DNA from: Thermotoga sp. SG1
Lineage (GTDB): Bacteria > Thermotogota > Thermotogae > Thermotogales > Thermotogaceae
Length of the DNA: 64,000 nt
Direction of reading: 5' to 3'
NCBI RefSeq assembly: GCF_002865985.1
Contig: NZ_LNDD01000001.1
Location: forward strand, 1-64,000
Shown here piece after piece: positions 1-18,813 of the stretch. Each line of letters starts with the position of its first letter. Within the stretch, counting starts at the first letter, position 1. A program made the position numbers and the translations under genes. The notes below the pieces were generated by a model, which made no database searches, was not told the DNA's origin, and saw only the letters and a program-made list of their open reading frames with translations.

Positions 1-314
1 TTGATGAGATAGCGGTGAAGGGGGAAGAGATCACAAAGAGGTTCAAAGAGATCCTTGGGAGGATAGAAGAGATCAACAGCATGATAGAGAACACGGCGGC
101 AACAGCTCAGGAGCAGGGAGCTGCGGCGGAAGAGATGGCGAGTGCCATGGACAACGTCACAAAGGTTGTGGAGAAAGTTGTGGAAAGTCTCTCAAGAATG
201 GAGTCCCTCATCGAAAACCAGACCAGCTCCTCTGCAAAAGTCAGTGAGGCAGCAGAGAGACTTTCTGAACTTTCCGAGAATCTTTCCTCGCTCGTTCAAA
301 AGTTCAGGGTGTGA
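1..314 (+). CDS. Methyl-accepting chemotaxis protein, C-terminal end (partial)
   Basis: The reading frame is open from the left edge (codons from base 3) to TGA at 312-314, so only the last ~104 residues of a chemoreceptor are present. The visible part is almost entirely helical with heptad spacing and carries the Gln/Glu/Ala-rich segment QEQGAAAEEMA, typical of methylation helices in the cytoplasmic signalling domain, then ends in the hydrophilic QKFRV tail. The internal GTG at 15 is not a believable start. It lies 10 bases before the OYE-like gene and on the same strand, so the receptor may sense a substrate of that cluster; this is inference from position only. Confidence 0.85.
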   Translation, partial: DEIAVKGEEITKRFKEILGRIEEINSMIENTAATAQEQGAAAEEMASAMDNVTKVVEKVVESLSRMESLIENQTSSSAKVSEAAERLSELSENLSSLVQKFRV

Positions 315-324
315 GGTGGACACT

Positions 325-1632
325 GTGAAAAAGAGGTTCAAATACAAAACACTGGATGAGATGCGATGGGAAGCGATCTCCCTTGGTATTGATATTCCCT
401 TTTCTGATGATTTCGATGTTTTCAAACAGCCTGTTGATCTTGGTTCAAAGACAATCCCGAACAGGTTCGTCGATCAGCCCATGGAAGGAAACGACGCCCA
501 GATCGATGGAACGCCCGGTCCTCTCACTCTGAGACGCTACAGAAGGCTCGCCGAAGGTGGAGCAGGTATCATTTGGGTTGAAGCCATCGCCATCTCCAAA
601 GAAGTGAGAGGAAACGATAAGCAACTGATGCTGATAGATGAAACAGTCGATGCTTTCAGAAGTTTTGTGGCCGAAATCAAAGATGTCTCTTTAAAAGTGA
701 ACGGTTTTGAACCCTACGTTGTAGCACAGCTCACTCATCCCGGAAGGTTTGGAAAGAACAAGAAGATCCTCTTTCATGACAAATTCCTGGACGAAAAGTA
801 CGGTATAACGAAAGACTTCCCGATTATGTCCGATGAAGAGTTGGAAAATCTGAAACAAGAATATCTGAAGGCGGCAAAACTTGCGGAGAAAGCAGGATTT
901 GACGCTGTGGATATAAAGGCATGCCACAGATACCTTCTTTCTGAACTTCTGGCGGCTCACACGAGAGAAGGAAAATACGGTGGTTCTTACGAAAACAGAA
1001 CAAAACTTTTGAAAGATATCATCAAATTGATAAAAGAGGGAACCAAGATAGACATAACGGTGAGACTGAACCTTTCCGATTTCATACCTTATCCGTATGG
1101 ATGGGGTTCAAATGAGGAAGGATCACTCAATTTCACCGAACCGAAAAGACTTCTCAGAGAACTGGAAGATCTCGAAGCGAAAATCATCAACGTCACCGCA
1201 TCCACACCATATCTGAAACCCCATATAAACAGACCTTACGATGAAATAGGAAAGTACAACCCTCCCGAACATCCCATCGTTGGGGTCGCACGCCTTTTGA
1301 ATCTAGCGAAACTGGCAAAGGAAACCCTCACGAAAACCCTCGTAGTTGCCAGCGGATTCACCTGGTTTAGACAGCTTGCACCTTATGTTGCGGCCGGTGT
1401 CTTGAAAAACTACTGGTGCGATTTCGTAGGATTCGGAAGGATGACCTTCGCATACCCAGACTATCCGAAGGATATCCTTCTCAAAGGAAGTCTCGATCCA
1501 AAGAGAGTCTGCATCACCTGTAACAAATGTGCAGAGTTGAAAGCCGCAGGAGAAAGCTGTGGATGTGTGATCAGAGACAGTGAGGTTTACCTTCCCATAT
1601 ACAAAAAGATGGAGGAGAGCCAGAAAAAATGA
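325..1632 (+). CDS. Old Yellow Enzyme-family NADH:flavin oxidoreductase with C-terminal Fe-S motif
   Basis: A protein of about 435 residues. The TIM-barrel FMN domain of the OYE family occupies most of it (N-terminal SKTIPNRFVDQPMEG, central ADK/VDIKACHRYLLSELLAAHTR region, C-terminal GFGRMTFAYPDYPKD). Near the C-terminus is a cysteine cluster C396-x2-C399-x2-C402-x9-C412 like the [4Fe-4S] site of multidomain OYE enzymes such as 2,4-dienoyl-CoA reductase. Those enzymes continue into FAD/NAD domains; this one stops and the next gene, overlapping by 4 nt, encodes a flavoprotein, so the two probably pass electrons between them (inference). The GTG at 325 is chosen because GAGGTG lies 6 nt upstream; the frame is open further upstream inside the chemoreceptor. 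Substrate unknown. Confidence 0.85.
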   Translation: MKKRFKYKTLDEMRWEAISLGIDIPFSDDFDVFKQPVDLGSKTIPNRFVDQPMEGNDAQIDGTPGPLTLRRYRRLAEGGAGIIWVEAIAISKEVRGNDKQLMLIDETVDAFRSFVAEIKDVSLKVNGFEPYVVAQLTHPGRFGKNKKILFHDKFLDEKYGITKDFPIMSDEELENLKQEYLKAAKLAEKAGFDAVDIKACHRYLLSELLAAHTREGKYGGSYENRTKLLKDIIKLIKEGTKIDITVRLNLSDFIPYPYGWGSNEEGSLNFTEPKRLLRELEDLEAKIINVTASTPYLKPHINRPYDEIGKYNPPEHPIVGVARLLNLAKLAKETLTKTLVVASGFTWFRQLAPYVAAGVLKNYWCDFVGFGRMTFAYPDYPKDILLKGSLDPKRVCITCNKCAELKAAGESCGCVIRDSEVYLPIYKKMEESQKK

Positions 1633-3623
1633 GAAAATCCACCGTGAAGTTGAACGGCCACACCGTCAGAGTTTTCTCGCTCAACACAGTTGTGGTGGGA
1701 TCTGGCGCTGCCGGCTTGAACGCAGCAGATAGGGTGTTTTCACTCGGGCAAAAAGACGTGGCTCTTGTGACCGAAAACCTCAAATGGGGAACTTCCAGAA
1801 ACACCGGCTCTGACAAGCAAACTTATTACAAACTCACACTTGCAGGAGACACACCGGATTCCGTTTACGATCTTGCAGAAACACTCTTCAACGGTGGAAG
1901 TATGGATGGAGACATCGCCCTCGTCGAGGCTGCCCTTTCCACACGTGCCTTCTTCAGACTTGTAGAGATCGGAGTGCCCTTTCCACATTCAAGATACGGA
2001 GAGTACGTGGGATACAAAACAGATCACGACCCTAAGCAGCGAGCAACTTCTGCTGGTCCTTTGACTTCCTATTACATGTGTGAGAGACTCCTTGAAGAGG
2101 TCAGAAGAAAAGGCATCAGAATCTTTGAAGGATACCAGGTGATAGGTGTTCTAACAGATAAAAACAAAGAAAAAGTAATCGGCTTGATCGCCCTCGATCT
2201 GAAAAACATCAACGATCCGGAGAAGAGGTACGTTCTTTTCAACACCAGAAACGTGATTTACGCCACGGGTGGACCCGCCGGGATGTTCTACTTCCATTCG
2301 GTCTATCCCCCCGTTCATTTCGGTGCCACAGGTGCTGCCTTGGAAGCGGGTGTCTGGGGAAAGAATCTCACGGAGTGGCAGTTCGGGATTGCCTCCAGAA
2401 AGTTCAGATGGAATCTCTCTGGTACGTACCAGCAGGTTATCCCAAGGTACGTTTCCACGGATGAGAACGGAAACGATGAAAAGGAGTTCCTTGAAGAATA
2501 CTTCCCCGACCCTTCAACGATGCTCACAGCTATCTTTCTGAAAGGTTATCAATGGCCGTTCGACGTAAGAAAAGTGAAAAACTACGGCTCCTCACTGATA
2601 GACATCCTCGTCTTTTACGAAACGGTGATCAAAGGAAGAAGAGTGTGGCTCGATTTCACAAGAAATCCGAGCTGGGGAAGCAAGAACGGTGAACTGGATT
2701 TTTCTCTCCTTGGAAAAGAGGCTTACGAGTATCTGAAAAACTCGGGAGCACTATTTGGACGCCCCATAGACAGACTCGAAAAAATGAACAGACCGGCCAT
2801 AGAGATCTATCTACAACATGGAATAGATCTGAGAAAGGATTATCTGGAAATCGGAGTGTGCGCCCAGCACAACAACGGAGGCCTTCATGGAAACATCTGG
2901 TGGGAAAGTAACTTGAAACACTTTTTCCCGGTGGGAGAGGTAAACGGAACCCACGGTGTTTACAGACCGGGCGGAAGCGCTCTAAATTCTGGACAGGTGG
3001 GCGGAATAAGGGCCGCCCAGTACGTGGTGGAAAACTATTCTGGTGATCCATTGAAAGAGGAAGAATTCTTGGAAGAAGCAAGGGAACAAATTCTCAAAAA
3101 GATCGAACTGGGTGAACGCTTTGCAAAAAGGATCATCGGAAGGTCGAACATATCGTTCATCCTCAAAGGAACAAGCGATCGTTCTATGAAAAGCATGGGG
3201 ATTGTAAGGTCTCTCGAAGAAGCAAGAAGGGGAAAGAACGAGGCACTGGAGGATCTCAACACTCTGGTCGACAGGATAGAAATTTCTTCGATAAAACAGC
3301 TTCCTTTCGCTTTCAGGTTACACGACATCCTTCTCACCCAGTACGTGTACATCTCTGCCGTTGAAAACTACATAGAGTCCGGTGGAAGAAGCAGAGGATC
3401 TTATATCGTCTACGATCCGAATGGAGAACTACCGGTTCCAAACCTGCCAGAGATGTTCAGATACAGTCTGGCGGATGAATCCTTCAACAGAAAGATTCAA
3501 AGAGTCGAATACAAAGATGGCAAGTGCGAGTTCTTCTGGGATCCAGTGAAGGAAATTCCAAGAGAAGATACCTGGTTCGAGACGGTGTGGAACAGCTTCA
3601 TGAGACGAGAGATTTTCAGGTAA
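1629..3623 (+). CDS. FAD-dependent fumarate reductase/succinate dehydrogenase-like flavoprotein
   Basis: A 664-residue protein. An N-terminal dinucleotide-binding motif (VVVGSGAAGLNAA, about residues 21-33) and a C-terminal FAD motif (RPGGSALNSGQVGGIRAA) place it in the FrdA/SdhA/L-aspartate oxidase superfamily. The TSAGPLTSYYM segment is the region where this family holds substrate-site residues, and an HNNGGLHGN motif lies further on. No signal peptide or heme motif is seen, so it is cytoplasmic and not a periplasmic flavocytochrome. The ATG overlaps the stop of the OYE gene (ATGA), implying translational coupling and a joint redox complex. Its physiological substrate cannot be read from sequence. 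Confidence 0.85.
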   Translation: MRKSTVKLNGHTVRVFSLNTVVVGSGAAGLNAADRVFSLGQKDVALVTENLKWGTSRNTGSDKQTYYKLTLAGDTPDSVYDLAETLFNGGSMDGDIALVEAALSTRAFFRLVEIGVPFPHSRYGEYVGYKTDHDPKQRATSAGPLTSYYMCERLLEEVRRKGIRIFEGYQVIGVLTDKNKEKVIGLIALDLKNINDPEKRYVLFNTRNVIYATGGPAGMFYFHSVYPPVHFGATGAALEAGVWGKNLTEWQFGIASRKFRWNLSGTYQQVIPRYVSTDENGNDEKEFLEEYFPDPSTMLTAIFLKGYQWPFDVRKVKNYGSSLIDILVFYETVIKGRRVWLDFTRNPSWGSKNGELDFSLLGKEAYEYLKNSGALFGRPIDRLEKMNRPAIEIYLQHGIDLRKDYLEIGVCAQHNNGGLHGNIWWESNLKHFFPVGEVNGTHGVYRPGGSALNSGQVGGIRAAQYVVENYSGDPLKEEEFLEEAREQILKKIELGERFAKRIIGRSNISFILKGTSDRSMKSMGIVRSLEEARRGKNEALEDLNTLVDRIEISSIKQLPFAFRLHDILLTQYVYISAVENYIESGGRSRGSYIVYDPNGELPVPNLPEMFRYSLADESFNRKIQRVEYKDGKCEFFWDPVKEIPREDTWFETVWNSFMRREIFR

Positions 3624-3636
3624 GGAGGAAAAAAGT

Positions 3637-4854
3637 ATGAAAGAAGTATCCGTTGTGCTTGTGGGTATTGGAGGATACGGAAACAAATACGTTGAACACA
3701 TTCTAAAAGAAGGAAGAGAAAGAGGAGTGCAGATAGCAGGGGCGGTCGATCCATCTCCTCAAAATTGCAGATTTTACGAGGAACTTAGATCTTTGAATGT
3801 TCCCATATATGATTCCCTTGAGGAATTCTACTCACACCACACAGTGGATCTTGCCATCGTATCTTCTCCCATACACTATCATTGTGAACAGACATGCCTT
3901 GCCGTCAAAAATGGCAGTCATGTACTCTGTGAAAAACCGGCCGCAGCAACGGTAAAAGAAGTCAAAAGAATGATCGAGTGTAGAGACAGATATAAAAAAA
4001 TCGTTGCGATAGGCTACCAGTGGTCCTACAATCCGGCGGTTCTCAGATTGAAGAAAGACATACTCTCAGGAAGATTCGGAAGGCCTGTTCTATTCAAAAC
4101 GATCGTTCTATGGCCCAGAGACACCGCTTACTACAGGAGAAATTCCTGGGCTGGAAAGATGAAAGTGAACGGCCGATGGGTTCTGGACAGTGTGGCAGGA
4201 AACGCGACAGCCCACTTCCTTCACAACATGTTCTTCCTGCTGGGTGAGAAAATGGAGGGCAGTGCTTACCCAGACAGCATCGTGGCAGAACTTTACAGGG
4301 CAAACGATATAGAGAGTTTCGATACGTGCGCTTTGAAGATGATGGTGAAAGATACACCGGTTTTCTTTTTTGCAACCCATGCGGTGAAGGAACGCATAGG
4401 ACCGGTCTTTGAGTACAGATTCGAAAAGGCACGCGTTCTTTGCAACTATCCAGAGTATCCAGAAAGCGCAGAAAACCTTCTGGTGGTTTACAACGACGGA
4501 AAAAAGGAGGTCTACGGACCCACAGATCATGGAAGTATGAGAAAGCTCTGGATCGCGGTGGAGGTTGCTAGGGGGAAAGAGGAATTCATCTGCACTCTCG
4601 AGTCGGCCATGGCTCACACGATCGCTATAAACGGAGCTCACATTTCCATGAAAGGGATACAGGATTTTCCAGACGAAATGAAGAGAGTTGAGGGCAACCC
4701 GCCTCTGATCTGGGTAGAAGGATTGAAAGAAGCGATGGAAAAGGCGTACAAAAATGAGAAGATCTTCTCAGAACTTGGTCTTCCCTGGGCAAAACGTGGA
4801 GAAGAAGTGAGACTTGGGAACTTCGAGGGTCTTGAAGGAGAGATAACATGCTGA
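3637..4854 (+). CDS. Gfo/Idh/MocA-family oxidoreductase (first of two)
   Basis: A 405-residue NAD(P)-dependent sugar or polyol dehydrogenase homologue. The N-terminal Rossmann motif is VLVGIGGYGNKY (residues 6-17) and the family signature CEKPAA follows at about 97-102, where the lysine is catalytic in characterised members. The C-terminal half is the alpha/beta substrate domain and is longer than usual for the family (~340). It starts 13 nt after the flavoprotein, behind GGAGGAAAAAAGT. The tandem pairing with a second, unrelated-looking family member suggests oxidation of one carbon and reduction of the same or another, as in known Gfo-dependent glycoside pathways (inference). Confidence 0.85.
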   Translation: MKEVSVVLVGIGGYGNKYVEHILKEGRERGVQIAGAVDPSPQNCRFYEELRSLNVPIYDSLEEFYSHHTVDLAIVSSPIHYHCEQTCLAVKNGSHVLCEKPAAATVKEVKRMIECRDRYKKIVAIGYQWSYNPAVLRLKKDILSGRFGRPVLFKTIVLWPRDTAYYRRNSWAGKMKVNGRWVLDSVAGNATAHFLHNMFFLLGEKMEGSAYPDSIVAELYRANDIESFDTCALKMMVKDTPVFFFATHAVKERIGPVFEYRFEKARVLCNYPEYPESAENLLVVYNDGKKEVYGPTDHGSMRKLWIAVEVARGKEEFICTLESAMAHTIAINGAHISMKGIQDFPDEMKRVEGNPPLIWVEGLKEAMEKAYKNEKIFSELGLPWAKRGEEVRLGNFEGLEGEITC

Positions 4855-5834
4855 AGATATGTATCGTAGGTTCCTCCGGTCACTTTGGCTACGTCCTGAA
4901 AGGCCTGGACGAGAGATGTAAAATCATAGGAATCTCCCCCGGAACGCCAGAGGAAGACATGTCGAAACTGGAAAAAACTCTGCTCGAGATGAACATCACC
5001 CCGAAAAGGTACGAAGATTGGAGAAGAATGTTAGATGAGGAAAAACCAGACATCCTTGTCATAAACACGATCTTCTCTCTGAACGGAAAGATTCTGCTCG
5101 AGGCTCTTGAAAGAGGTATTCATTCCTTCGTAGAAAAACCCATAGCCACAACCTTTGAGGATCTTGAAAGAATCAAAGATACATACCGGAAAGTGAAAGG
5201 CAGAGTCTTTTTTGCTGCCATGTTCGGTATTAGATACAGATCTCACTTTCTTACCGCTAAGAGGTTAGTCGATGAAGGTGCAATCGGTGAGATAAGGCTT
5301 GTGAACACGCAGAAATCCTATAAACTGGGCAAAAGACCGGATTTTTACAAAAAAAGAGAAACCTTCGGTGGTACGATTCCCTGGGTTGGGATACACGCGA
5401 TCGATTGGATACACTGGATCGTTGGAAAAAGGTTCCTTTCCGTCTATGCCACCCATTCACGCCGCCATAACCTGGACCACGGGGAATTGGAAACCACCGC
5501 ACTCTGTCACTTCACTTTGGAAGAAGAGATTTTTGCCTCACTCACTATAGATTATCTCAGACCCCAGGGGGCTCCCACCCATGACGATGATAGAATGAGA
5601 ATAGTGGGAACCGATGGAATTGTCGAAGTTATCCACGAAAGGGTTTTCCTGACCGATGACAAAGGCCACAGAGAAGTTCCCCTGGTGGAAGAAGGACAGA
5701 TCTTCAGGGATTTCCTGAAAGAAATACGTGGTCAGGGAAAGTGCATGGTGACACCAGAGGATTCAATTCTCACCACGGAAGTTGCTCTGAAAGCAAGACT
5801 TTCAGCGGACACGGGGCGGATCGTTCAGATCTAA
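4848..5834 (+). CDS. Gfo/Idh/MocA-family oxidoreductase (second of two)
   Basis: A 328-residue NAD(P)-dependent dehydrogenase homologue. It has an N-terminal Rossmann fold (IVGSSGHFGYVLKGL), the catalytic-lysine signature FVEKPIA near residue 92, and the middle motif GGTIPWVGIHAIDWIHW, which in this family holds the Asp/His pair of the active site. The ATG lies inside the end of the preceding gene (7-nt overlap), so the two dehydrogenases are translationally coupled. Substrate unknown. Confidence 0.85.
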   Translation: MLKICIVGSSGHFGYVLKGLDERCKIIGISPGTPEEDMSKLEKTLLEMNITPKRYEDWRRMLDEEKPDILVINTIFSLNGKILLEALERGIHSFVEKPIATTFEDLERIKDTYRKVKGRVFFAAMFGIRYRSHFLTAKRLVDEGAIGEIRLVNTQKSYKLGKRPDFYKKRETFGGTIPWVGIHAIDWIHWIVGKRFLSVYATHSRRHNLDHGELETTALCHFTLEEEIFASLTIDYLRPQGAPTHDDDRMRIVGTDGIVEVIHERVFLTDDKGHREVPLVEEGQIFRDFLKEIRGQGKCMVTPEDSILTTEVALKARLSADTGRIVQI

Positions 5835-5847
5835 AGGAGGAAAATAT

Positions 5848-6738
5848 ATGCTCTACACGACATTCACTGCCATTATTCCTTCCTTTCTAATCATCCTCAT
5901 CGGCTACACGGTGGGGAAGGTTTTTTCTAGAGAGGTCATGGGACTTGCTTCAAAGGTTGCAATCTGGGTGATGGTGCCAACGGTGACGTTCACTTTCATA
6001 AACGAGTACACTCCCAGCCTTTCAATCCTTGGAGAATTTGGTCTTGGAGTGGCCATAATTTTTGTTGTCTTCTATCTCTACTCCAGACTCTTTAAAGAGA
6101 AAAAAGAGGTGATTCACATCACCGCCGTGACAGCAAACGTAGGATATCTGGGATATCCCATCCTTCTTTCGCTGTGGGGGGAAGAAGCGCTCTCCCTGGG
6201 AGTGGTCTACGCCACTTTAAACATCATCATGTTTTCTGCCGTTCTTCCCATGTTTCTGGGAGAAAAAGTAAATGTCAAAAATCTTTTTAAACTTCCTTAC
6301 ATATACGCCTTGCTTGCTGGATTTCTCACAGGAAAGATGGGATGGAGTTATAGAGAACTTCCAGAGTGGATTGTAGATACCGTGCTCATGCTGAAACAAT
6401 CTGCCATACCGTATCTTCTTCTCTATGTGGGAATGTCTGTTTCCAGATTGAAACTGGGCAGACATCTCTCAAGGGTAGGAGGAATCATTGTTGTGAACAA
6501 ACTCTTTCTTGCACCACTTCTTGCACTGATCTTTGCGATGGTCTACGGACTCGAGGGACTCACCGCCAAGGTGTTCGTTCTGGAAACGGCCATGCCCGCT
6601 GCCGTGAACGCAGTTGTTCTCACCTCCGCTCTGGGTGGTGACAGCGAAACGGTGGGCTACGGTGTTACCCTCACCACCTTCTTTGCTATATTCACCCTTC
6701 CCATCTGGGCAGTTTTGCTCGAAAAGATCTTCGGTTGA
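5848..6738 (+). CDS. AEC-family (auxin efflux carrier-like) permease
   Basis: A 296-residue integral membrane protein with about ten hydrophobic segments arranged as two five-helix halves, the layout of the AEC/BASS transporter fold. The first helix begins directly at the N-terminus (FTAIIPSFLIILIGYTVG). Bacterial AEC members export or import small carboxylates such as malate or malonate. It is the last gene of the + strand cluster, 13 nt after the second dehydrogenase with an AAAGGAGG ribosome site, so it probably moves the substrate or an acidic end product of that pathway (inference). Confidence 0.8.
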   Translation: MLYTTFTAIIPSFLIILIGYTVGKVFSREVMGLASKVAIWVMVPTVTFTFINEYTPSLSILGEFGLGVAIIFVVFYLYSRLFKEKKEVIHITAVTANVGYLGYPILLSLWGEEALSLGVVYATLNIIMFSAVLPMFLGEKVNVKNLFKLPYIYALLAGFLTGKMGWSYRELPEWIVDTVLMLKQSAIPYLLLYVGMSVSRLKLGRHLSRVGGIIVVNKLFLAPLLALIFAMVYGLEGLTAKVFVLETAMPAAVNAVVLTSALGGDSETVGYGVTLTTFFAIFTLPIWAVLLEKIFG

Positions 6739-6792: not shown

Positions 6793-6813
6793 ATGGAACC
6801 GGGAGGTGATGTG

Positions 6814-7908
6814 ATGATCACAACCACCATATTCCCGGGTAGGTACGTTCAGGGAGCAGGGGCGATTGATGTTCTGGAAGAAGAACTTTTCCGCTTTGGA
6901 GAGAGGGCGTTTGTGGTGATCGACGGTTTTGTAGACAAGAACGTGCTGGGAGAAGATTTCTTCGGTTCTTTCACAAGGGTCAGGGTAAACAAACAGATCT
7001 TCGGTGGAGAGTGTTCAGACGAAGAGATAGAAAGACTTTCAGGTCTCGCAAAAGAGGAAACAGACGTGGTGGTGGGCATAGGTGGCGGAAAAACTCTCGA
7101 TACAGCCAAAGCGGTCGCCTATGAGTTGAAAAGACCCGTTGTGATAGTTCCAACCATTGCCTCTACGGATGCTCCATGCAGCGCTCTTTCCGTGATTTAC
7201 ACACCGAGTGGTGAGTTCAAAAGATACTTGTTCTTGCCAAAAAATCCAGATGTCGTTCTTGTCGACACCAAGATCATAGCGAAAGCCCCTGCAAAATTTC
7301 TTGTTGCCGGAATGGGAGATGCCCTTGCCACGTGGTTTGAGGCAGAATCGTGCAAACAAAAGCACGCACCGAACATGACAGGAAGGATCGGTTCAATGAC
7401 CGCTTACGCACTGGCAAGGCTCTGCTACGAAACACTCCTCGAGTACGGCATGCTCGCAAAGAGATCTGTGGAGGAAAAGTCTGTCACACCGGCTCTTGAA
7501 AGGATCGTCGAGGCAAACACACTGTTGAGCGGTCTGGGGTTCGAAAGTGGAGGGCTGGCAGCTGCCCACGCCATACACAACGGCCTCACCGTTCTGGAAG
7601 AAACTCACAAGTATCTACACGGAGAGAAGGTTGCAATAGGGGTCCTCGCCTCGCTGTTTTTGACAGACAAACCCAGAGAGATGATCGAGGAAGTCTACTC
7701 CTTCTGTGAGGAAGTGGGACTGCCCACAACCCTGGCAGAGATAGGGCTCGGTGATGTTTCAGACGAGGATCTGATGAAAGTGGCAGAAAAGGCCTGCGAC
7801 AAGAACGAAACGATACACAACGAACCCCGTCCTGTGACACCAGAAGACGTGTTCTTTGCTCTGAAAGCAGCGGACAGATACGGAAAAATGAGGAAAAACC
7901 TCACTTGA
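6814..7908 (+). CDS. gldA: Glycerol dehydrogenase, Zn-dependent
   Basis: A 364-residue iron/zinc-containing alcohol dehydrogenase-family enzyme that oxidises glycerol to dihydroxyacetone with NAD+. The NAD site is VVVGIGGGKTLDTAKAVAY. Metal ligands are expected at the Asp of MGDALATWFEAES, the His of AAAHAIHNGL and the His of HKYLHGEKVAIG, as in the T. maritima GldA crystal structure, which this sequence closely resembles. The ATG at 6814 is used because GGGAGGTGAT lies just before it; the upstream in-frame ATG at 6793 lies before that site and has none of its own. The gene overlaps the convergent isomerase gene by 8 nt. Confidence 0.95.
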   Translation: MITTTIFPGRYVQGAGAIDVLEEELFRFGERAFVVIDGFVDKNVLGEDFFGSFTRVRVNKQIFGGECSDEEIERLSGLAKEETDVVVGIGGGKTLDTAKAVAYELKRPVVIVPTIASTDAPCSALSVIYTPSGEFKRYLFLPKNPDVVLVDTKIIAKAPAKFLVAGMGDALATWFEAESCKQKHAPNMTGRIGSMTAYALARLCYETLLEYGMLAKRSVEEKSVTPALERIVEANTLLSGLGFESGGLAAAHAIHNGLTVLEETHKYLHGEKVAIGVLASLFLTDKPREMIEEVYSFCEEVGLPTTLAEIGLGDVSDEDLMKVAEKACDKNETIHNEPRPVTPEDVFFALKAADRYGKMRKNLT

Positions 7909-8815
7909 CTTTTCTTCTTTTTTTCGTCTTGTTGTTGTTTGCCGCAAGAATCAGACGCCTTCTCAGAAGGTTGAGAGAGTCCGTGTACTCGTCTGCGAAC
8001 CTGTCCATGGAGTTTATCTCCAGAATGACGATCCCGCTAAAACCAGACTCTCTTATTGTCTTGAAGACTCTATTGTAGGGGATGTCCCCTTCCCCGATGG
8101 GGAGGTGGAGATCCCCTATTCCGTACACGAATCTGAATGCTTCAACATCGGGTATTTGCTGGTACGTTTGAGAAGACTCACCGAAATTGTCACTGACGTG
8201 GAGTTCCACAGCGTAGGGCAGGCCCTTTTTCAACTCCTCGTAGAAGTTAAGGCCTCGATAGCTTGTGAGTATGAACAAGTGCCCAATGTCTACGGTGAGT
8301 TTCACGTTCGGATGGTTCACCTGCTTCACCAGTTCCAGAACTTCGGAAACAGAATGCTGGACGTTCTCCACACCGATGACAATGCCTTTTTCTTTTGCCA
8401 AGTCCGCCAGTTCCCGAAGGGCCAGGATCTCCGCTCGATGCTGTATTCTCTCTGGGACGTCGATTGAATGATCCACTTCGTTGTAATGATAGACGATGAC
8501 TTCAGCGTTTATCTCTCCGGCAAACTCTATAACCGCTTCCATCACTTTGTAATGCCAGGGATTTGTCTTCCTCTTGAGGTTTATAACGTCCGGTGCGTGC
8601 ACCGTGTACCTGAAGTTGTAATTGGAGAGTATCTCTTTTACCCTCTCAAGCCTTTTCTTTATGATGCGCCCTCTTGCTATCACGTCAAGCCCGGCAGCGG
8701 GAATCTCCGCATAGTCAAATCCAATACTTTTGAAGAACTCCAGTTCACTCACCAGTCTCTTTATCGATCCGTTCACCCTTCTTGTATCAACGTTTGTTCC
8801 AATACCTTTTATCAT
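7901..8815 (-). CDS. Sugar phosphate isomerase/epimerase-like TIM-barrel protein
   Basis: A 304-residue member of the xylose isomerase-like/AP endonuclease 2 superfamily. Visible barrel-strand motifs include DYAEIPAAGLDV, YTVHAPDVINLKR, VIGVENVQHS, LTVDIGHLF and ELHVSDNFG, with Glu, Asp and His residues in the usual metal-binding positions. The basic tail (NNKTKKRRKVK) is unusual. It is the last gene after the inoEFGK importer, 17 nt downstream of inoK, so it probably isomerises an imported inositol- or sugar-derived intermediate. Its exact reaction cannot be assigned. Confidence 0.8.
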   Translation of the reverse strand: MIKGIGTNVDTRRVNGSIKRLVSELEFFKSIGFDYAEIPAAGLDVIARGRIIKKRLERVKEILSNYNFRYTVHAPDVINLKRKTNPWHYKVMEAVIEFAGEINAEVIVYHYNEVDHSIDVPERIQHRAEILALRELADLAKEKGIVIGVENVQHSVSEVLELVKQVNHPNVKLTVDIGHLFILTSYRGLNFYEELKKGLPYAVELHVSDNFGESSQTYQQIPDVEAFRFVYGIGDLHLPIGEGDIPYNRVFKTIRESGFSGIVILEINSMDRFADEYTDSLNLLRRRLILAANNNKTKKRRKVK

Positions 8816-8832
8816 CTTCTACACCTTCTTCT

Positions 8833-9912
8833 CTATAAGATCGTCTCCTCCGTTTCCGGGTTGAAAAGATGAATCTTTTCTAGGTGCGGAACAAGAAACA
8901 CCTTTTCTCCAACAGATGGAATCCGCTCTGGATTTCCGAACACCTTTATGAGTTCTCCTCTGTCGGTCTGAACGTTTACTATTATATCTCTCCCAAGGGG
9001 CTCGACCACGTAAACTGTACCGGGAATTGCGTTTTCTTGCTTAGTATAAATCACTTCACAGTGTTCCGGTCTTATACCAACGACCACCTCTTTCAGGTTC
9101 ACTTTCAACTCTTTTGGAATCTTCAAAACCACATCGTCTCTTTTCAGAATTGTCTGGCCTTTTTCCACTTCCACAGAAAAACCCTTCAGGAAATTCGTCG
9201 GGGGATTACCTATGAACGAGGCAACGAACATGTTCTTCGGGTTTTCGTATATCTCATCCGGTGTTCCGTACTGAACGAGTTTTCCCTGGTTGAAGACCGC
9301 AATTCTCGATGCCATCGTCATCGCCTCTGCCTGGTCATGTGTGACATATACAGATGTGATTCCTAGTTCCTGCTGAAGATGCTTAATTTCTGCCCTCATG
9401 AGCATTCTCAGGTTCGCATCGAGATTCGAGAGAGGCTCATCAAAAAGGAGCACCTTCGGTTGCTTCACCAATGCCCTTGCGAGTGCTACCCTCTGCTGCT
9501 GGCCACCGGAGAGTTGAGAAGGTTTTCTTTCGAGAAGGTTGTCTATGAGGAGTTTTTGAGCGATTTCAACGACTCTTTTTTCTATCTCTTCTTTTGGCAT
9601 CTTTCTTGCCCTCAGGGGAAAGGCGATGTTCTCAAAAACTGTCATGTGAGGATAGAGCGCATAGTTCTGGAAAACCATTCCCACTTCTCTGTATTTCGGT
9701 GGAACGTCGTTGACCAAAACATCGTCGAAGTATATCTCACCCGACGTGGGTTTGTAGATGCCAGCAAGCGTCAGAAGAGTGGTGGTTTTGCCACAGCCAG
9801 ACGGACCGAGCAACGCAACGAACTCTCCATCCTTCACCTCGAAACTCACACCGTCAACCGCTTTCACTTTCCCGAAATATTTCTTCAAATTCACAACCCT
9901 GATGCTGGGCAT
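8833..9912 (-). CDS. inoK: ABC importer ATP-binding protein (inositol transporter)
   Basis: A 359-residue MalK/UgpC-type ATPase that energises carbohydrate import. It has Walker A GPSGCGKTT, Q-loop FQNYALYPHM, signature LSGGQQQR, Walker B VLLFDEPLSNLD and the switch His in YVTHDQAEA. The C-terminal TOBE/OB domain (about 240-359) is present as in MalK-like proteins. The start is the ATG that overlaps the stop of inoG by one base (TAATG); the frame remains open upstream but lies inside inoG. The name follows the T. maritima inoEFGK cluster (TM0418-TM0421), recognised from gene order. Confidence 0.9.
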   Translation of the reverse strand: MPSIRVVNLKKYFGKVKAVDGVSFEVKDGEFVALLGPSGCGKTTTLLTLAGIYKPTSGEIYFDDVLVNDVPPKYREVGMVFQNYALYPHMTVFENIAFPLRARKMPKEEIEKRVVEIAQKLLIDNLLERKPSQLSGGQQQRVALARALVKQPKVLLFDEPLSNLDANLRMLMRAEIKHLQQELGITSVYVTHDQAEAMTMASRIAVFNQGKLVQYGTPDEIYENPKNMFVASFIGNPPTNFLKGFSVEVEKGQTILKRDDVVLKIPKELKVNLKEVVVGIRPEHCEVIYTKQENAIPGTVYVVEPLGRDIIVNVQTDRGELIKVFGNPERIPSVGEKVFLVPHLEKIHLFNPETEETIL

Positions 9913-10763
9913 TATCCCTTCACTCCCCCGATGGTTAGTTTTATCATGTGTTTGCTGACGAAGAAAAAGAAGATGATCGTTGGTATCATGTAGAACAATC
10001 CCACGGCGGTTACAAGACCGTAGTCTGCGAATCTGTAGTCTCCGATGAATCCCTTCACGTACTTTGAGAGCGTCCACAGGTTCTGCGAGAAGATGAAGGT
10101 GTTCACAAAAACAAATTCAGACCATCCGGAAAGGAAGGCAAAAATGGCAGTTACAGCGATCCCTGGCTTTACAAGTGGAAGAAGAATCTTTCTCCACACC
10201 TCGAATCTGCTGTAGCCATCAACAAGCCCTGCCCACTCGAGTTCCCAGGGGATACCATCGTAAAACCCCTTCATTATCCAGGTGCCCCACGGCACTTCCA
10301 GAGAGACTTTGAGGAGTATCACTCCCCAGAGGGTATCCAGCAGCCTAAGCGTCCAAAGAAGATAAAACACAGCCGTCATGAGAGATATTGCCGGAAAAGC
10401 ATGAAGTGCGAGAATGAACTTCATCATAGAGGATCTTCCCGGAAAGTCGTACCTGGAAAGGGCGTATCCACCAAGACTTGTGATCGACACCTCTACTCCC
10501 ATCACACCGAGTGCCAGCAAAGCGGTGTTCAGCGTAGTGTGCCAGATGTTCGGATATCCCTTGATCTCCTGCCAGAGGAATCTCCAGTTTTTCAGGGTGA
10601 GTTTTGTAGGAACAAAGCCGTTTACAAGATCTTCACTGAAAGATCTCAGAATGAGCCACACGTATCCCACCAGAATCGGTGAGGTTATGAGAAAAAGGAC
10701 AAGGATTATCACAAAATTTCTGATTTTTTCCGAATTTTTTTGCCAGAACGAGAGTTTCATCAT
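9912..10763 (-). CDS. inoG: ABC importer permease, MalG-like (inositol transporter)
   Basis: A 283-residue inner-membrane permease with six predicted membrane helices. The EAA loop that docks on the ATPase is EWAGLVDGYSRFEVWRKILLPLVKPG. Two adjacent ATGs (10763 and 10760) overlap the inoF stop; the ribosome site GAGGTGGA fits either. It pairs with InoF as the heterodimeric pore of the importer. Confidence 0.88.
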   Translation of the reverse strand: MMKLSFWQKNSEKIRNFVIILVLFLITSPILVGYVWLILRSFSEDLVNGFVPTKLTLKNWRFLWQEIKGYPNIWHTTLNTALLALGVMGVEVSITSLGGYALSRYDFPGRSSMMKFILALHAFPAISLMTAVFYLLWTLRLLDTLWGVILLKVSLEVPWGTWIMKGFYDGIPWELEWAGLVDGYSRFEVWRKILLPLVKPGIAVTAIFAFLSGWSEFVFVNTFIFSQNLWTLSKYVKGFIGDYRFADYGLVTAVGLFYMIPTIIFFFFVSKHMIKLTIGGVKG

Positions 10764-11644
10764 TCCACCTCGACCTTCGGTTTTTCCATAAGAGATTCAA
10801 AACCGAAAAACTTCATGTAAACGAGAGCGGAAACCACACCTATGATAACAAGGATGACCGAAAGGGCTGCACCGTATCCAAATCTGAAATGTGAAAAGGC
10901 GTTGTGGTATGTGTAGAGCGCCCACACCTCCGTTCTGTAAACAGGTCCACCGTCCGTGATGATGAGTATGTATTCGAAGGATGCGAGAAGGGAAAGTGTC
11001 TGGTATGCTGTCACGAAGAGAAGATGCCATTTTATCAGAGGAAGTGTGATTCTCCTCACCACCATGAACCAGCTTGCCCCATCGATGCAAGCTGCTCTGT
11101 AGTAATCCTCTGGTATGGATTTTATCGCCGCTGTGAAAACGAGCATTCCCATCGAAGCACCTATGAAACCGTTGGCAAAGATCACCATCCACATGGGAGC
11201 GCTGTGAAGCCAGTCCTGGGGAGGGAGACCGAAGAATCCCCGAAGAAAGTTCACAAGCCCGTATTCTGTAGGATCGAACATCCAGAGCCAGAGAAGTCCA
11301 TAGACAACAGATGGTGTGAGTCTGGGAAGCATCCAGAGAGTTCTGAAAAAGTTACCCCACCTATCGCTGATCGATGTGGTGAGAAGTGATATGAGTAGGG
11401 CCGTTCCAAGATTGAAAAGTCCCAGTGTACCAAAAGTGTATATGAAGGTGTTCGCAATCACACGTGGAATGATGAAATCCGTGGAGATATCCTTGAAATT
11501 CTGAAACCCCACAAAATTCCATACGAACGAATAGTCCATATCTGTGAACGCGATCACTATGGTGAGAACAACAGGAATCACAAAGAAGATGACTACAAGA
11601 ACAAGAAGAGGAGAGAGCAAAAGCAGCGGTTTCAATCTCTTCAC
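10760..11644 (-). CDS. inoF: ABC importer permease, MalF-like (inositol transporter)
   Basis: A permease of about 294 residues with a strongly hydrophobic first helix (LLLLSPLLVLVVIFFVIP) and an EAA loop YRAACIDGASWFMVVRRITLPLIK. GTG at 11644 is preferred because GAGGTG lies 6 nt upstream; an alternative GTG at 11653 overlaps that site. It lies 37 nt after inoE and overlaps inoG by 4 nt. Confidence 0.88.
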   Translation of the reverse strand: MKRLKPLLLLSPLLVLVVIFFVIPVVLTIVIAFTDMDYSFVWNFVGFQNFKDISTDFIIPRVIANTFIYTFGTLGLFNLGTALLISLLTTSISDRWGNFFRTLWMLPRLTPSVVYGLLWLWMFDPTEYGLVNFLRGFFGLPPQDWLHSAPMWMVIFANGFIGASMGMLVFTAAIKSIPEDYYRAACIDGASWFMVVRRITLPLIKWHLLFVTAYQTLSLLASFEYILIITDGGPVYRTEVWALYTYHNAFSHFRFGYGAALSVILVIIGVVSALVYMKFFGFESLMEKPKVEVE

Positions 11645-11681
11645 CCCGTTCACCTCGCAAAAAGAGTGAGGGAAAGCTCCC

Positions 11682-13013
11682 TCACTCCACGATCACAACC
11701 CGGTCTTTCAGCTGAGACTTCAACCTCTTTGCTACGTCCTCCGCTACTTTCTCTGGATCCATTCCACTTTCGGCCATTTGCATACCTTCGAAGATGATCT
11801 GGTTGTAGAGATTGAACATGTCATCGTTTGGAATGAAACCAGAGTACGGCAAAAGCTTTGTTCCTTCCACCATGATGAATTCTTTCGTATATTCAGGAAG
11901 CACTGTCTGCTGCCATCTGATTGGCAGGTGCCCACTCTCAACAGCGTGTCTCATGTTGAGTTCCGGTGCAGAAGCCAAGGTTATGAGCAAGAATGCTATG
12001 TCCGGATATTTACTCGTGCTTGGGATCATGTAAACGATTGGATGGGACAGGGTGTTCGGTCTTCCTCTGTCTCTGAACTTCGGAACGGGAGCAAGGATGA
12101 ACATATTCTGAAGTTCTTCTTCTGTTTTTCCATAATCTTTCTTCCATTCAGCCCAGTTCCACGTTCCACCCATCCACGCAAAGACTTTTCCGCTCGTGAA
12201 GTCTTTGTGGACGGAGGTCCACGGTGTTCCTATCATGTTTTTTGGAAGGATCTTGTAGGTGTTCGCAAGGTCGTAGAGGAGCTTGAAGTAGTCTTTCATC
12301 TCTTCCACGTTGTAAACGAACACAGCCTTTTCCTCATCGTAGAAGTCGATACCCATGCTGATCATGAGCTGGTAGTAATCGATACCTGCTTTCGGCCTGT
12401 GGTAAAGTCCCCATTCCACAAGACCCTTTTCAACGGCTTCTCTTGCCACTTCAATGAAGTCTTCAAAGGTGAACTCTCCTTTGGCAATCCTGTCCGGCAA
12501 AGAATTGATCTCTTCATCCGACCAGCCGAGCCTCTTCAGAACTTGCTTGTTGATGTAGAAGGGCCTTGCTTCTGTGTCCTGTGGTATTCCGTAGATCTTT
12601 CCCTTGTACTTTGTTGCCTCCCAAAGTGATGGGATGAAGTCGTAGTACACTTCGTCCCAGTACTTCTTCACGTAGTCGTCTAGAGGAATGATATAACCTG
12701 CTTTCGCCCAGGCTCCTATGTCGTCGTGTCCCGAACAGATGATGTCCACCGTCTGGCCAGATTTGATTCCAAAGACGACTTTTTGTTTAAAAGAACTCCA
12801 GTCTGTGGTGTCAAAATAACCGTCGACTTTGATCGTGAGATCGACGCCAAGATCTTTCAAAATCTTGTTCAACCTTTCTGCGGCTGTTTTCAGATTGTCG
12901 AACCTGTAGTAAGACGGATTGTCGGGTCCCACGGTCCACGCGGTGATGATGATCTCCTCTGCAAACATCAAAAGACTCACAGCCAAGATGATCAAAAGTA
13001 AAAGTTTCCTCAT
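11682..13013 (-). CDS. inoE: Extracellular solute-binding protein (inositol transporter)
   Basis: A 443-residue family-1 solute-binding protein. It starts with a classical signal peptide (MRKLLLLIILAVSLLMFA) cut near residue 18; there is no lipobox cysteine, so it is probably periplasmic. The mature protein begins EEIIITAWTVGPDNP and shows the two-lobe binding-protein pattern (DIICSGHDDIGAWAKAGYIIPLD, FTSGKVFAWMGGTWNW). In T. maritima the corresponding protein was reported to bind myo-inositol. It heads the importer genes and has an unusual all-G ribosome site, listed separately. Confidence 0.9.
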   Translation of the reverse strand: MRKLLLLIILAVSLLMFAEEIIITAWTVGPDNPSYYRFDNLKTAAERLNKILKDLGVDLTIKVDGYFDTTDWSSFKQKVVFGIKSGQTVDIICSGHDDIGAWAKAGYIIPLDDYVKKYWDEVYYDFIPSLWEATKYKGKIYGIPQDTEARPFYINKQVLKRLGWSDEEINSLPDRIAKGEFTFEDFIEVAREAVEKGLVEWGLYHRPKAGIDYYQLMISMGIDFYDEEKAVFVYNVEEMKDYFKLLYDLANTYKILPKNMIGTPWTSVHKDFTSGKVFAWMGGTWNWAEWKKDYGKTEEELQNMFILAPVPKFRDRGRPNTLSHPIVYMIPSTSKYPDIAFLLITLASAPELNMRHAVESGHLPIRWQQTVLPEYTKEFIMVEGTKLLPYSGFIPNDDMFNLYNQIIFEGMQMAESGMDPEKVAEDVAKRLKSQLKDRVVIVE

Positions 13014-13028
13014 GCTTTCACCCCCCCC
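13014..13028 (-). promoter_or_regulatory. Ribosome binding site made of an eight-G tract (inoE)
   Basis: On the minus strand the inoE start is preceded by eight consecutive G residues (13021-13028) and the 7-nt spacer TGAAAGC. The tract serves as the Shine-Dalgarno core. A homopolymer here can change length by slippage and so alter translation. Confidence 0.7.
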
Positions 13029-13074
13029 GTTTTATTAATTTTATCACTATTTTTTTAATTTTCGTTAAAAAACA

Positions 13075-13893
13075 TCAAATTTCTTTCCTGTAGGCCCGCA
13101 GAATCAGATAGAGCGCCACGATCAGATATCCAAACTGAACGAAAACTCTGCCCCATTCCATTTTTGTGGAGTATCCAAAAAGAACCGCCAGAATGGATCC
13201 CAAGAGTCCCTTGTGATGCCACACATTGTCTTCGGTAATTCCTAGATTGTAAGCCTCTTTCTGGAAAAAGCCAAGATCAACTCCTTCCTCTTCTGCCCAC
13301 TCAATGAATTCGTGCGTTCCATAACCAGCAAGTCCGGCAGCAACAAAAATCAACAGAATGGAACTGTAATAGAAGAACTTTCTCAGGTTGATCTTTAATC
13401 CCACAACGTAGGAAATAAAAGCGATTGCCATCGCGTTTATCAAACCTAGAACCACACCAAAAACAGTTCCTGCAAGATCCTGTGTCATGAAGGGTGTAAC
13501 AAATAACACCGTTTCAAAACCTTCTCTGAAGACAACAATAAAAGCAAATCCTATCAATGCCCATCTACTGATAGCCTTGCTAACTTTTTTCTCTATCTCT
13601 GACTTGATGTTTCTCCCTTTCGTAACCATCCAGTAGATCATACTTGTGAGTACCACCACCGCAATGTAAGAAGCCACACCTTCGAAAAGCTCTTTTTCTT
13701 CAATACCTCCGTAGAACCAGACAACGATTGCTCCAAGAACAATGCTTGCGAAAATGGAGAAAAATGTTCCCAGCCAGACGTCCTTTGCTTGAGATCCTCT
13801 ACCGGTTCTTTTCAAATAGGCAAGGATCACCGCAATGATAACACTGGCTTCCAGAGCCTCTCTGAGTGTTACCAGGAAGGCACCGGGATGCAT
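13075..13893 (-). CDS. FTR1-family high-affinity iron permease
   Basis: A 272-residue membrane protein with about seven helices. Both RExxE motifs of the FTR1/EfeU family are present: REALE in the first helix (about residues 11-15) and REGFE in the fourth (about 123-127); these bind Fe3+ in characterised members. A acidic loop (EFIEWAEEEGVDLG) lies near residue 200. It sits between iolO and inoE on the same strand but has its own promoter with a Fur-like box, so it looks like an independent iron-uptake gene inserted in the inositol cluster. No EfeO or EfeB partner is nearby. Confidence 0.88.
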   Translation of the reverse strand: MHPGAFLVTLREALEASVIIAVILAYLKRTGRGSQAKDVWLGTFFSIFASIVLGAIVVWFYGGIEEKELFEGVASYIAVVVLTSMIYWMVTKGRNIKSEIEKKVSKAISRWALIGFAFIVVFREGFETVLFVTPFMTQDLAGTVFGVVLGLINAMAIAFISYVVGLKINLRKFFYYSSILLIFVAAGLAGYGTHEFIEWAEEEGVDLGFFQKEAYNLGITEDNVWHHKGLLGSILAVLFGYSTKMEWGRVFVQFGYLIVALYLILRAYRKEI

Positions 13894-13937
13894 GGCTTTC
13901 TACCTCCTTCTCCGAATTTTGCAGGGATGGATGACGC

Positions 13938-13973
13938 GATAATTAGTTTATCATTATTCTCAATATTAATCAA
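13938..13973 (-). promoter_or_regulatory. Promoter of the iron permease with Fur-like box
   Basis: On the minus strand TTGATT (13968-13973), a 17-bp spacer and TAAACT (13945-13950). The segment 13938-13959 (GATAATTAGTTTATCATTATTC on the plus strand) carries GATAAT and ATCATTAT elements of the Fur box and covers the -10 region, so iron-bound Fur would block transcription. Assignment rests on similarity to the Fur consensus and on the gene downstream. Confidence 0.5.
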
Positions 13974-13989
13974 TACTGCCCATTCAATG

Positions 13990-14805
13990 TCATCTTAAGT
14001 TAACAATCAGTTCTTTCAGCACCCTGAGAGCAATTTTTGCTGCTCTTTCCATCCCTTCTGGGAGAGGAAGACACTCAACGGAGACGTATCCATCGTAGCC
14101 GAGTTCTTTCAGAGTCCTGAAAGTACTCAAAAAGTCAAAATGTCCGCATCCCGGTGCCCATCGGTTGCTGTCTGCCACATGGAAGTGGTACAGTTTCTTT
14201 CCCGCCACTTTCAGACTCTCTGAAACGTTTACCTCTTCTATGTTCATGTGGAAGGTGTCTGCGAGGATTCCCACCCTGTCGGAGTTGATTTTTTCAATCA
14301 CCCTCAGTGCCTCTTCAACGGTGTTTATGAAATCCGTCTCGTACCTGTTGAGAGGCTCTATGACGAATCTCACCTTCTGCGTATTCTTCAGTAGAGAGTC
14401 CATGCTCTCAAGAAAGATCTTCTCTACCTCTCGATACGACCTTCCATCTCTTTTTCCACGAACAAGGCCGATGATAACAAAAGCTTCAAATAACTCTGCA
14501 ACCTCCGCGTGCTTCTTGACCCTCTCAATCGACTTTTTTCTGACTTTATCATCTGGATGCGTCAGAGAAAGCCCGTCGGCGAGGAAGGCCTGACCGGTTC
14601 CTATGGCACAGATAGGAAGCTCCAGATCTTTTGAGAGCCTGGCCACTTCGCCCCAGTCCACAACGGATGGATCTCTGACAGCGATCTCCACTGCCTGATA
14701 GCCAATCTTTTTTGCAAGTTCCATTCCTTTTTTCAGGTCTCCTTTGAAAGCCAGTGCGTCGAAGGCTGCATCAGAGGTGCTGATCACCAAAGAGAGTTTC
14801 AACAT
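13990..14805 (-). CDS. iolO: 5-keto-L-gluconate epimerase (inositol pathway)
   Basis: A xylose-isomerase-like TIM-barrel protein of about 270 residues. Metal and acid/base residues are expected in [47 protein letters not shown] and VSVECLP. In T. maritima TM0416 (IolO) epimerises 5-keto-L-gluconate to D-tagaturonate. ATG 14808, ATG 14805 and TTG 14802 are all in frame after GAGGAGG; ATG 14805 and TTG 14802 have better spacing than ATG 14808. The start lies inside the upstream kinase gene (35-nt overlap), so the two are coupled. Confidence 0.85.
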
Positions 14806-15628
14806 CATCCCTCCTCAAAGGTCCTGGATGTCTCATCTTAACAGAAGTAACCCTTGCCGCAAATCGTGTGGCCTCATCCACACTCATTCCCTTGAAGAGA
14901 AAAGCAACGAGAAACGCGGCAGTACACGTGTCACCTCTTCCTGTTCGCCCTTCCATAGTCCATCCTTCAAAAGGTGCTTCATGGAACTCTCCATCGAACA
15001 CAAGAACACCGGCGGAGTGAGTTGCGAGTACAATCTTGGCACCGAAAGAGCCAATGATTCTACACGCATCTTTTAGATCCTTTGTTCCTGTCAGAACCGA
15101 TGCTTCTTTGATATCGACCTTGAAGAGATCAAAAAATCTCAGGTACTCTTTTTTTCTCCAGTCTCTGTAGACGAGTTTTTCGTTTTCTGGAACTCTGACG
15201 AAACCCTGTGCGTCTCCGGACAGAAAATCCACTTTTTTGCGCAGTTTTGTTATGAGTTTTTCTGGAAACTCACCGTACCACAGGGGATTCACGTGGCAAA
15301 CCTTTCCTTCAACGTGTAGAAGATCCTCCTCTGTGAACGGATCGGCTGTTGAAATCAGGAAACTTTCCCTCTCATCCGGACCGGCTTTGTATCTATTCTC
15401 TATACTGGTTGTCCTGGTACTTTCCAGAAAGACCACTTCAACACCATTTTCACGCAAAAATTCAAAGTGTACGACATCTTCCCTTGCACACTTTGTAACT
15501 ACCTTCGCTTTCACCCCAAGAAGTGCTGCGGTGATGGAACCAGCCACCACTCCTCCACCGTACGCTATTTCCTTTTTTCCACGTGTCACGTTAATGTCCT
15601 TCGACACGTGCCCCATGAAGGTTATCAT
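14771..15628 (-). CDS. iolK: PfkB/ribokinase-family carbohydrate kinase (inositol cluster)
   Basis: A 285-residue PfkB-family kinase. It has the N-terminal glycine pair ([12 protein letters not shown]) and the C-terminal anion-hole/catalytic motif [11 protein letters not shown] with the base Asp. The usual first lid strand region is short, as in smaller family members. It overlaps iolG by 4 nt upstream and iolO by 35 nt downstream. The published Thermotoga inositol route does not obviously need a kinase, so the substrate (inositol, an inositol derivative or a keto-sugar acid) is uncertain; the symbol follows usage for the cluster. Confidence 0.78.
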
Positions 15629-16629: not shown

Positions 16630-16633
16630 GGTC

Positions 16634-17605: not shown

Positions 17606-17615
17606 AGTTCTCACC

Positions 17616-18800: not shown

Positions 18801-18813
18801 AGAACCACCCCCT

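Follow-up and report, generated by a model that had tools for sequence, protein, structure and literature searches.

A run of flavoenzyme and sugar-dehydrogenase genes at the start of a contig of Thermotoga sp. SG1 raises the question of which substrate the run serves and whether its genes form a system of their own. The run lies at positions 325 to 6738 (+ strand) of the window, by which we mean the whole stretch of 64,000 nucleotides analyzed. An initial annotation described it as a five-gene cluster behind a chemoreceptor, with no assigned substrate, and read it as a probably undescribed pathway that oxidizes a sugar, reduces a C=C bond and then exports an acid. The logic of sugar oxidation coupled to C=C reduction fits the enzyme families, and no published characterization of the module was found in the open-access literature. 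The reading lacked the substrate class, for which the neighboring genes and synteny point to pectin and galacturonate, and its acid export is not supported. Four of the genes, encoding an Old-yellow-enzyme-family protein (OYE), an FrdA-like flavoprotein and two Gfo/Idh/MocA dehydrogenases (GfoA and GfoB), are a conserved set in pectin and galacturonic-acid operons of anaerobes from several phyla. They probably represent an unrecognized side-branch of pectin sugar-acid metabolism.

Gene Run and Operon Context

The open reading frames, Pfam families and junctions of all five genes have been confirmed. The first gene (325–1632, +, GTG start at 325) encodes the OYE (Pfam Oxidored_FMN) and is followed by genes for the FrdA/SdhA-like FAD flavoprotein (1629–3623, +; FAD_binding_2), GfoA (3637–4854, +) and GfoB (4848–5834, +; both GFO_IDH_MocA), and an AEC-family permease (5848–6738, +; Mem_trans) that belongs to the Thermotoga run and lies outside the conserved module. 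Immediately upstream, 15–314 (+) encodes the C-terminal end of a chemoreceptor (methyl-accepting chemotaxis protein) truncated by the contig end. The junctions from the chemoreceptor through OYE, FrdA-like, GfoA and GfoB to AEC are +10, -4, +13, -7 and +13 nt. A glycerol dehydrogenase gene (GldA; 6793–7908, +) follows AEC after a gap of 54 nt and is a boundary gene outside the module. None of the five genes of the run matches an NCBIfam model above any cut-off. The run is not a chance arrangement, because three other Thermotoga genomes carry the five genes in the same order at 82–90% identity. The divergent stretch at 7901–19905 of the window holds a complete inositol regulon consisting of a TIM-barrel protein, an InoEFGK-type ABC transporter, IolO, a kinase, IolG, IolN, IolM and a ROK regulator.

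Contigs C2, C3 and C4 of the same genome (G000) each carry at an end a full or partial copy of bases 1–318 of the window, so that the assembly broke inside a chemoreceptor repeat shared by four contig ends. The missing upstream piece was located by searching the DNA with the sequence that precedes the corresponding gene run in genome G091. On its counterpart (G000:C3:1-6161, minus strand) lie pelA, the genes for the three AguEFG transporter proteins and the remaining part of the chemoreceptor gene. The order in the Thermotoga sp. SG1 genome is thus likely to be aguE-aguF-aguG-MCP-OYE-FrdA-GfoA-GfoB-AEC, and since the end of C3 continues into the window, the gene set would be the 3' part of an operon for pectin transport. 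The same nine genes lie on one strand in G091, where the top promoter-like site of that strand (11 of 12 positions matching) is found just 5' of aguE, with a terminator-like hairpin separating aguE from aguF. A single transcript from aguE through AEC is plausible there. Two Thermotoga loci (L023, 1–7000, and L024, 1–3100) carry oligopeptide-type ABC transporter genes directly 5' of OYE in place of the AguEFG and chemoreceptor part.

The five genes lie directly 3' of aguEFG and the chemoreceptor, beside genes of the UxaR regulon. The UxaR pectin/galacturonate regulon of T. maritima comprises the same AguEFG, pelA, aldH-pelB and uxa genes, and its members aguEFG, pelA and aldH-pelB were upregulated >17-fold on pectin (main text of PMC3750489). 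The main text of that report does not mention the OYE, FrdA-like, GfoA, GfoB or AEC genes and assigns none of the first four to the regulon (PMC3750489). No reaction of the classical galacturonate route requires these four proteins. A further connection comes from the protein at the aldH position of the Thermotoga sp. SG1 genome (L139, 2161–3267, directly 5' of a GH28 gene), which is 59% identical to a Zn-dehydrogenase encoded beside OYE-FrdA-KdgK at locus L060. Thus a gene of T. maritima that is among those most strongly induced by pectin has as its counterpart a dehydrogenase that elsewhere belongs to the OYE-FrdA set.

Distribution of the Module

The OYE gene is present in 9 of 103 Thermotogota genomes, and an FrdA-like gene adjoins it in all nine. 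A more distant FrdA-like gene occurs in 8 of the 94 genomes without OYE (Fisher 1e-8). FrdA-like flavoproteins of the f2 Thermotogota (L029–L036; 27–32% identity) have no OYE neighbor and were excluded for lack of that partner. A second Thermotogota family (G047, G050 and G036) carries OYE (50% identity), GfoB (53–56%), GfoA (28–30%) and FrdA (28–31%) together, with an AguEFG-type transporter immediately 5' of OYE-FrdA. The locus of G047 reads GH4-UxaC-ROK regulator-UxaE-GH28-GfoA-GfoB-PL1-ABC (AguEFG homologue)-OYE-FrdA-KdgA-KdgK-IclR. Near the pectin locus of G036, a chemoreceptor (L138, 11838–13847) is 38% identical to that of T. maritima, a likeness that may reflect the common signaling domain only.

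Outside the Thermotogota, the OYE alignment was used for a genome-wide scan, which returned at least 487 loci, from which 80 were taken. FrdA was found in 38 and a Gfo gene in 28 of the 77 loci with an intact OYE open reading frame, as counted within the fetched stretch and with many contigs short. The same 77 loci include 20 with at least one hexuronate or pectin gene and 57 with none of the scored hexuronate genes, again with many contigs short. Among 34 genomes tested, 28 have FrdA, with one match each; they include Halanaerobium, in which the gene is about 7–9 kb away from a UxaC gene. The locus of Halanaerobium saccharolyticum (L127) reads ABC-GfoA-OYE-UxaB-UxaE-UxaC-UxaA-GfoB-GH28-esterase-ANKH-FrdA, that of H. 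congolense (L040/L130) LacI-OYE-SDR-FrdA-TctC..TctA-UxaB-UxaE-UxaC-UxaA, and that of Phycisphaerae OYE-SDR-KdgA-FrdA-KdgK-GH28-GH28. OYE, FrdA and the Gfo pair also recur in single MAGs. In the Halanaerobium pectin operons, an ANKH-family membrane protein is encoded directly 5' of FrdA (L127, 14663–16027; L125, 14823–16187). The distance between FrdA and OYE in some Halanaerobium operons means that a physical complex of the two proteins is not implied.

Linkage to genes for oligogalacturonide uptake, GH28 or PL enzymes, and Uxa and Kdg proteins was thus found in independent lineages. Of 22 genomes with UxaC, 10 carry it no more than 15 kb from OYE or FrdA, where about 2% would be expected for each (binomial 5e-12), yet these genomes represent only 3–4 independent lineages. 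KdgK is the commonest hexuronate gene adjoining OYE-FrdA, including in genomes G115 and G118, which have OYE, FrdA, SDR and KdgK and lack UxaC and KduI. The co-occurrence of the run thus extends across phyla for OYE, FrdA-like, GfoA and GfoB, and the scattered occurrence that would have counted against the initial reading applies to AEC alone.

Many relatives carry a KduD-like SDR or a Zn-dehydrogenase in place of the Gfo pair. Some OYE relatives are also found in non-pectin loci, with GH51/rhamnulokinase, GH31 or GH9/GH10 genes, and these loci, together with the 57 without scored hexuronate genes, suggest that the wider OYE family may serve several sugars. In Caldicoprobacter and relatives (L054, L055, L058, L061 and L068), the order OYE-FrdA-LacI-Zn-dehydrogenase is conserved; four of these five loci adjoin a gene for a GH94-type protein of about 1970 aa, and two of the genomes were tested and have neither UxaC nor KduI.

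Features of the Encoded Proteins

The OYE consists of an FMN barrel and a C-x2-C-x2-C-x11-C set of Fe-S ligands (C393, C396, C399 and C411, with cysteine numbering counted from codon 334), which are kept in 83–86 of about 86 aligned relatives. Its AlphaFold model (pLDDT 93.7) was compared by VIA-align, where a fold missing from the list was not counted as an absence. The closest structures were 2-naphthoyl-CoA reductase (residues 13–400; Z 43, rmsd 2.3 over 356), trimethylamine dehydrogenase (Z 40.6, rmsd 2.7 over 358) and 2,4-dienoyl-CoA reductase (Z 40.3, rmsd 2.3 over 353). These enzymes share the FMN barrel and 4Fe-4S segment with the OYE (Z 40–43) but continue into C-terminal FAD/NAD(P) domains; no such FAD/NAD(P)H domain was found in the window OYE, which stops after the Fe-S segment. 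The active site is K195-x-x-H198, and Lys-x-x-His occurs in 87 of 87 alignment rows, whereas the classical His-x-x-His/Asn pair at the flavin is absent from the window OYE. Where YqjM has its first active-site His and Cys26, the window OYE has Lys195 and Glu51, respectively. The possibility that the invariant lysine was an artefact of the search pattern was rejected, as Lys is also present in 13 relatives found only by a Lys-free pattern. The conserved pocket, rich in Lys, Glu and Arg, suggests a charged substrate.

A group of relatives (cluster 8: L062, L063, L073, L078, L079, L094, L100 and L101) encodes proteins of about 880 aa in which a Lys-type OYE is fused to a Fer4_20 + Pyr_redox_2 NAD(P)H module, and an FrdA partner is lacking in some of the genomes concerned. 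Pairing with FrdA is also seen among long OYE relatives that have the NAD(P)H domain, which argues that the OYE is normally a reductase.

The AlphaFold model of the FrdA-like protein (pLDDT 92.7) matches E. coli FrdA over the whole fold (Z 44.8, rmsd 3.7 over 549), and the fold, including the helical domain, is shared with fumarate reductase and L-aspartate oxidase flavoproteins in general (Z 37–45). In the FAD domain, the His and Arg of the substrate site are retained. Unlike those enzymes, the FrdA-like protein has no His for covalent FAD and no TEGxRGEGG motif with the capping-domain Glu and Arg, the corresponding region being RWNLSGTYQQVIPRY, which is not alignable, and no FrdB or FrdC partner gene adjoins it, FrdB being absent from the orthologous loci as well. 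The divergent capping domain without the usual Glu/Arg motif makes fumarate or succinate unlikely as its substrate. A GSDKQTYY signature is invariant in a 30-row alignment from Thermotoga to Phycisphaerae. A profile of 30 FrdA rows matched no PDB sequence at 1e-20, and a 7-row profile did obtain a PDB match.

Both Gfo proteins have a Rossmann domain and the EKP lysine (K100 in GfoA, K97 in GfoB), together with N189-x3-H193 in GfoA and H183 in GfoB. Alignments show several invariant Arg residues in each, which would suit an acidic sugar. GfoB is close to a solved structure, 3ip3 (632.9 bits), labeled only as a putative oxidoreductase; we take this entry to be TM_0425, for which, to our knowledge, no function has been published.

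Comparison with Known Systems

In bile-acid 7-dehydroxylation, the Fe-S OYEs BaiCD and BaiH, FrdA-like reductases and an SDR alter C=C bonds beside a ketone, and the window set resembles this combination. The window OYE differs from BaiCD in lacking the FAD/NAD(P) half, in its score (66 bits against a cut-off of 825) and in its sugar context. A second comparison is offered by the levoglucosan pathway (LgdA, LgdB1, LgdB2 and LgdC), in which a sugar is dehydrogenated, undergoes elimination and has its keto form reduced again (PMC7676230), steps that resemble those proposed for the module. Unlike the module, that pathway uses no flavoenzymes, has other partner genes and acts on a neutral substrate (PMC7676230). 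In a comparison with C3-oxidation/elimination cleavage of glycosides (Lgd, Dgp type), which uses a 3-keto intermediate and an eliminase partner, TIM-barrel partners were seen beside related OYE and Gfo genes and were absent from the Thermotoga cluster.

Proposed Role and Alternatives

The reading that we favor, with somewhat better than even confidence, is that OYE, FrdA-like, GfoA and GfoB constitute an accessory redox branch of pectin and hexuronate catabolism. We infer strongly that the substrate is a galacturonic-acid derivative, moderately that 2-keto-3-deoxygluconate (KDG) is where the product enters the hexuronate pathway, and only weakly in which direction and sequence the redox steps run. 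Entry at KDG is suggested because KdgK is the commonest hexuronate neighbor even where UxaC and KduI are missing. The Halanaerobium operon holds a complete UxaCBA/UxaE route, so that the use of plain galacturonate in these organisms cannot depend on the module. In the accessory branch, uronic-acid (oligo)saccharides would be imported via AguEFG-type transporters, and GfoA and GfoB would use NAD to oxidize a ring or chain hydroxyl of the galacturonic-acid-derived substrate and would later reduce a ketone again. The 4Fe-4S OYE and the FrdA-like protein would then act, by C=C reduction or its reverse, on unsaturated or alpha-hydroxy-acid intermediates enabled by the keto group, and the product would enter the hexuronate pathway at or before KDG.

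In one tentative form of this branch, a tagaturonate-level keto acid would lose water to give an enone, which the OYE would reduce; FrdA would then turn the alpha-hydroxy acid at C5 into 2,5-diketo-3-deoxygluconate by oxidation, and an SDR or Gfo enzyme would reduce this to KDG. A bolder reading, which we consider rather unlikely, is a new flavin-dependent uronic-acid route, widespread in anaerobes, in which KDG is made from a galacturonate-derived intermediate by a Lys-type 4Fe-4S OYE and an FrdA-like protein, together with a Gfo pair, an SDR or a Zn-dehydrogenase. Such a route, if it exists, could bypass UxaC or KduI in genomes without them (G115 and G118). Pectin is a major plant polymer whose anaerobic breakdown is usually drawn as hydrolysis or lysis followed by a short hexuronate route, and a conserved, single-copy flavoenzyme pair in pectin operons of Thermotogota, Halanaerobium and relatives, other Bacillota and Planctomycetes points to a step missing from that picture. 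The module proteins of Thermotoga should be thermostable.

Several Thermotoga genomes encode a pectate lyase that should yield unsaturated oligogalacturonides, yet they have neither GH88/GH105 nor KduI. The module might accordingly replace GH88/GH105 and KduI in processing delta-4,5-unsaturated galacturonyl residues, with GfoA oxidizing the allylic C3-OH to an enone that is then reduced or hydrated to KDG, a possibility that we consider improbable. KduI and GH88/GH105 are indeed absent from 6 of 6 module-bearing Thermotogota tested, PL1 pectate lyase is encoded in five module-bearing genomes (inside the operon in two), and C3 oxidation would give exactly an OYE-type substrate. Gfo enzymes, such as YjhC, are known to act on unsaturated sugar acids (PMC7315737). 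The occurrence of PL1 does not track the module, however, and the explanation is kept only as a rival for this reason: PL1 was not found in G093, G094 or G036, in Halanaerobium or in several further carriers, and it occurs in four Thermotogota that lack the module. KDG, moreover, requires a C5 ketone, which reduction of C4=C5 would not provide.

The initial reading as an electron sink, with a polyol or sugar oxidized, electrons passed onto an enone and an acid exported by AEC, fits the enzyme families, and Thermotoga is a fermenter. Against it, AEC occurs within the module only in Thermotoga; it is missing in the second Thermotogota family, a single 26%-identical homologue is found in Orenia, and elsewhere AguEFG-type ABC, TctABC or TRAP importers take its place. 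Galacturonate, being already oxidized, would leave little electron surplus in fermentation, and no neighboring gene indicates an acid product, so this reading is very unlikely to hold.

Fe-S OYEs and FrdA-like enzymes also include enoate and cinnamate-type reductases, and an esterase or arabinofuranosidase gene is present in some loci. The OYE and FrdA might act on hydroxycinnamates (ferulate, coumarate) that are ester-linked to the side chains of pectin and reduce the double bond of their own side chain, an explanation to which we give little credence: it does not account for the Gfo pair, the SDR or KdgK, no signature of a feruloyl esterase was found, and the charged character of the conserved OYE pocket would fit it poorly.

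An extra inositol or inositol-derivative branch of the neighboring regulon (IolR, IolG, IolM, IolN, IolO and InoEFGK), whose genes begin 1.2 kb downstream, is scarcely credible and was dropped as an identity for the module: the inositol genes are on the opposite strand, the conserved neighbors in the G091, f10 and Halanaerobium loci are pectin and hexuronate rather than inositol genes, and the weak matches of GfoA and GfoB to inositol 2-dehydrogenase (IolG) models (62.0 and 73.2 bits) fall far under the cut-off of 355.
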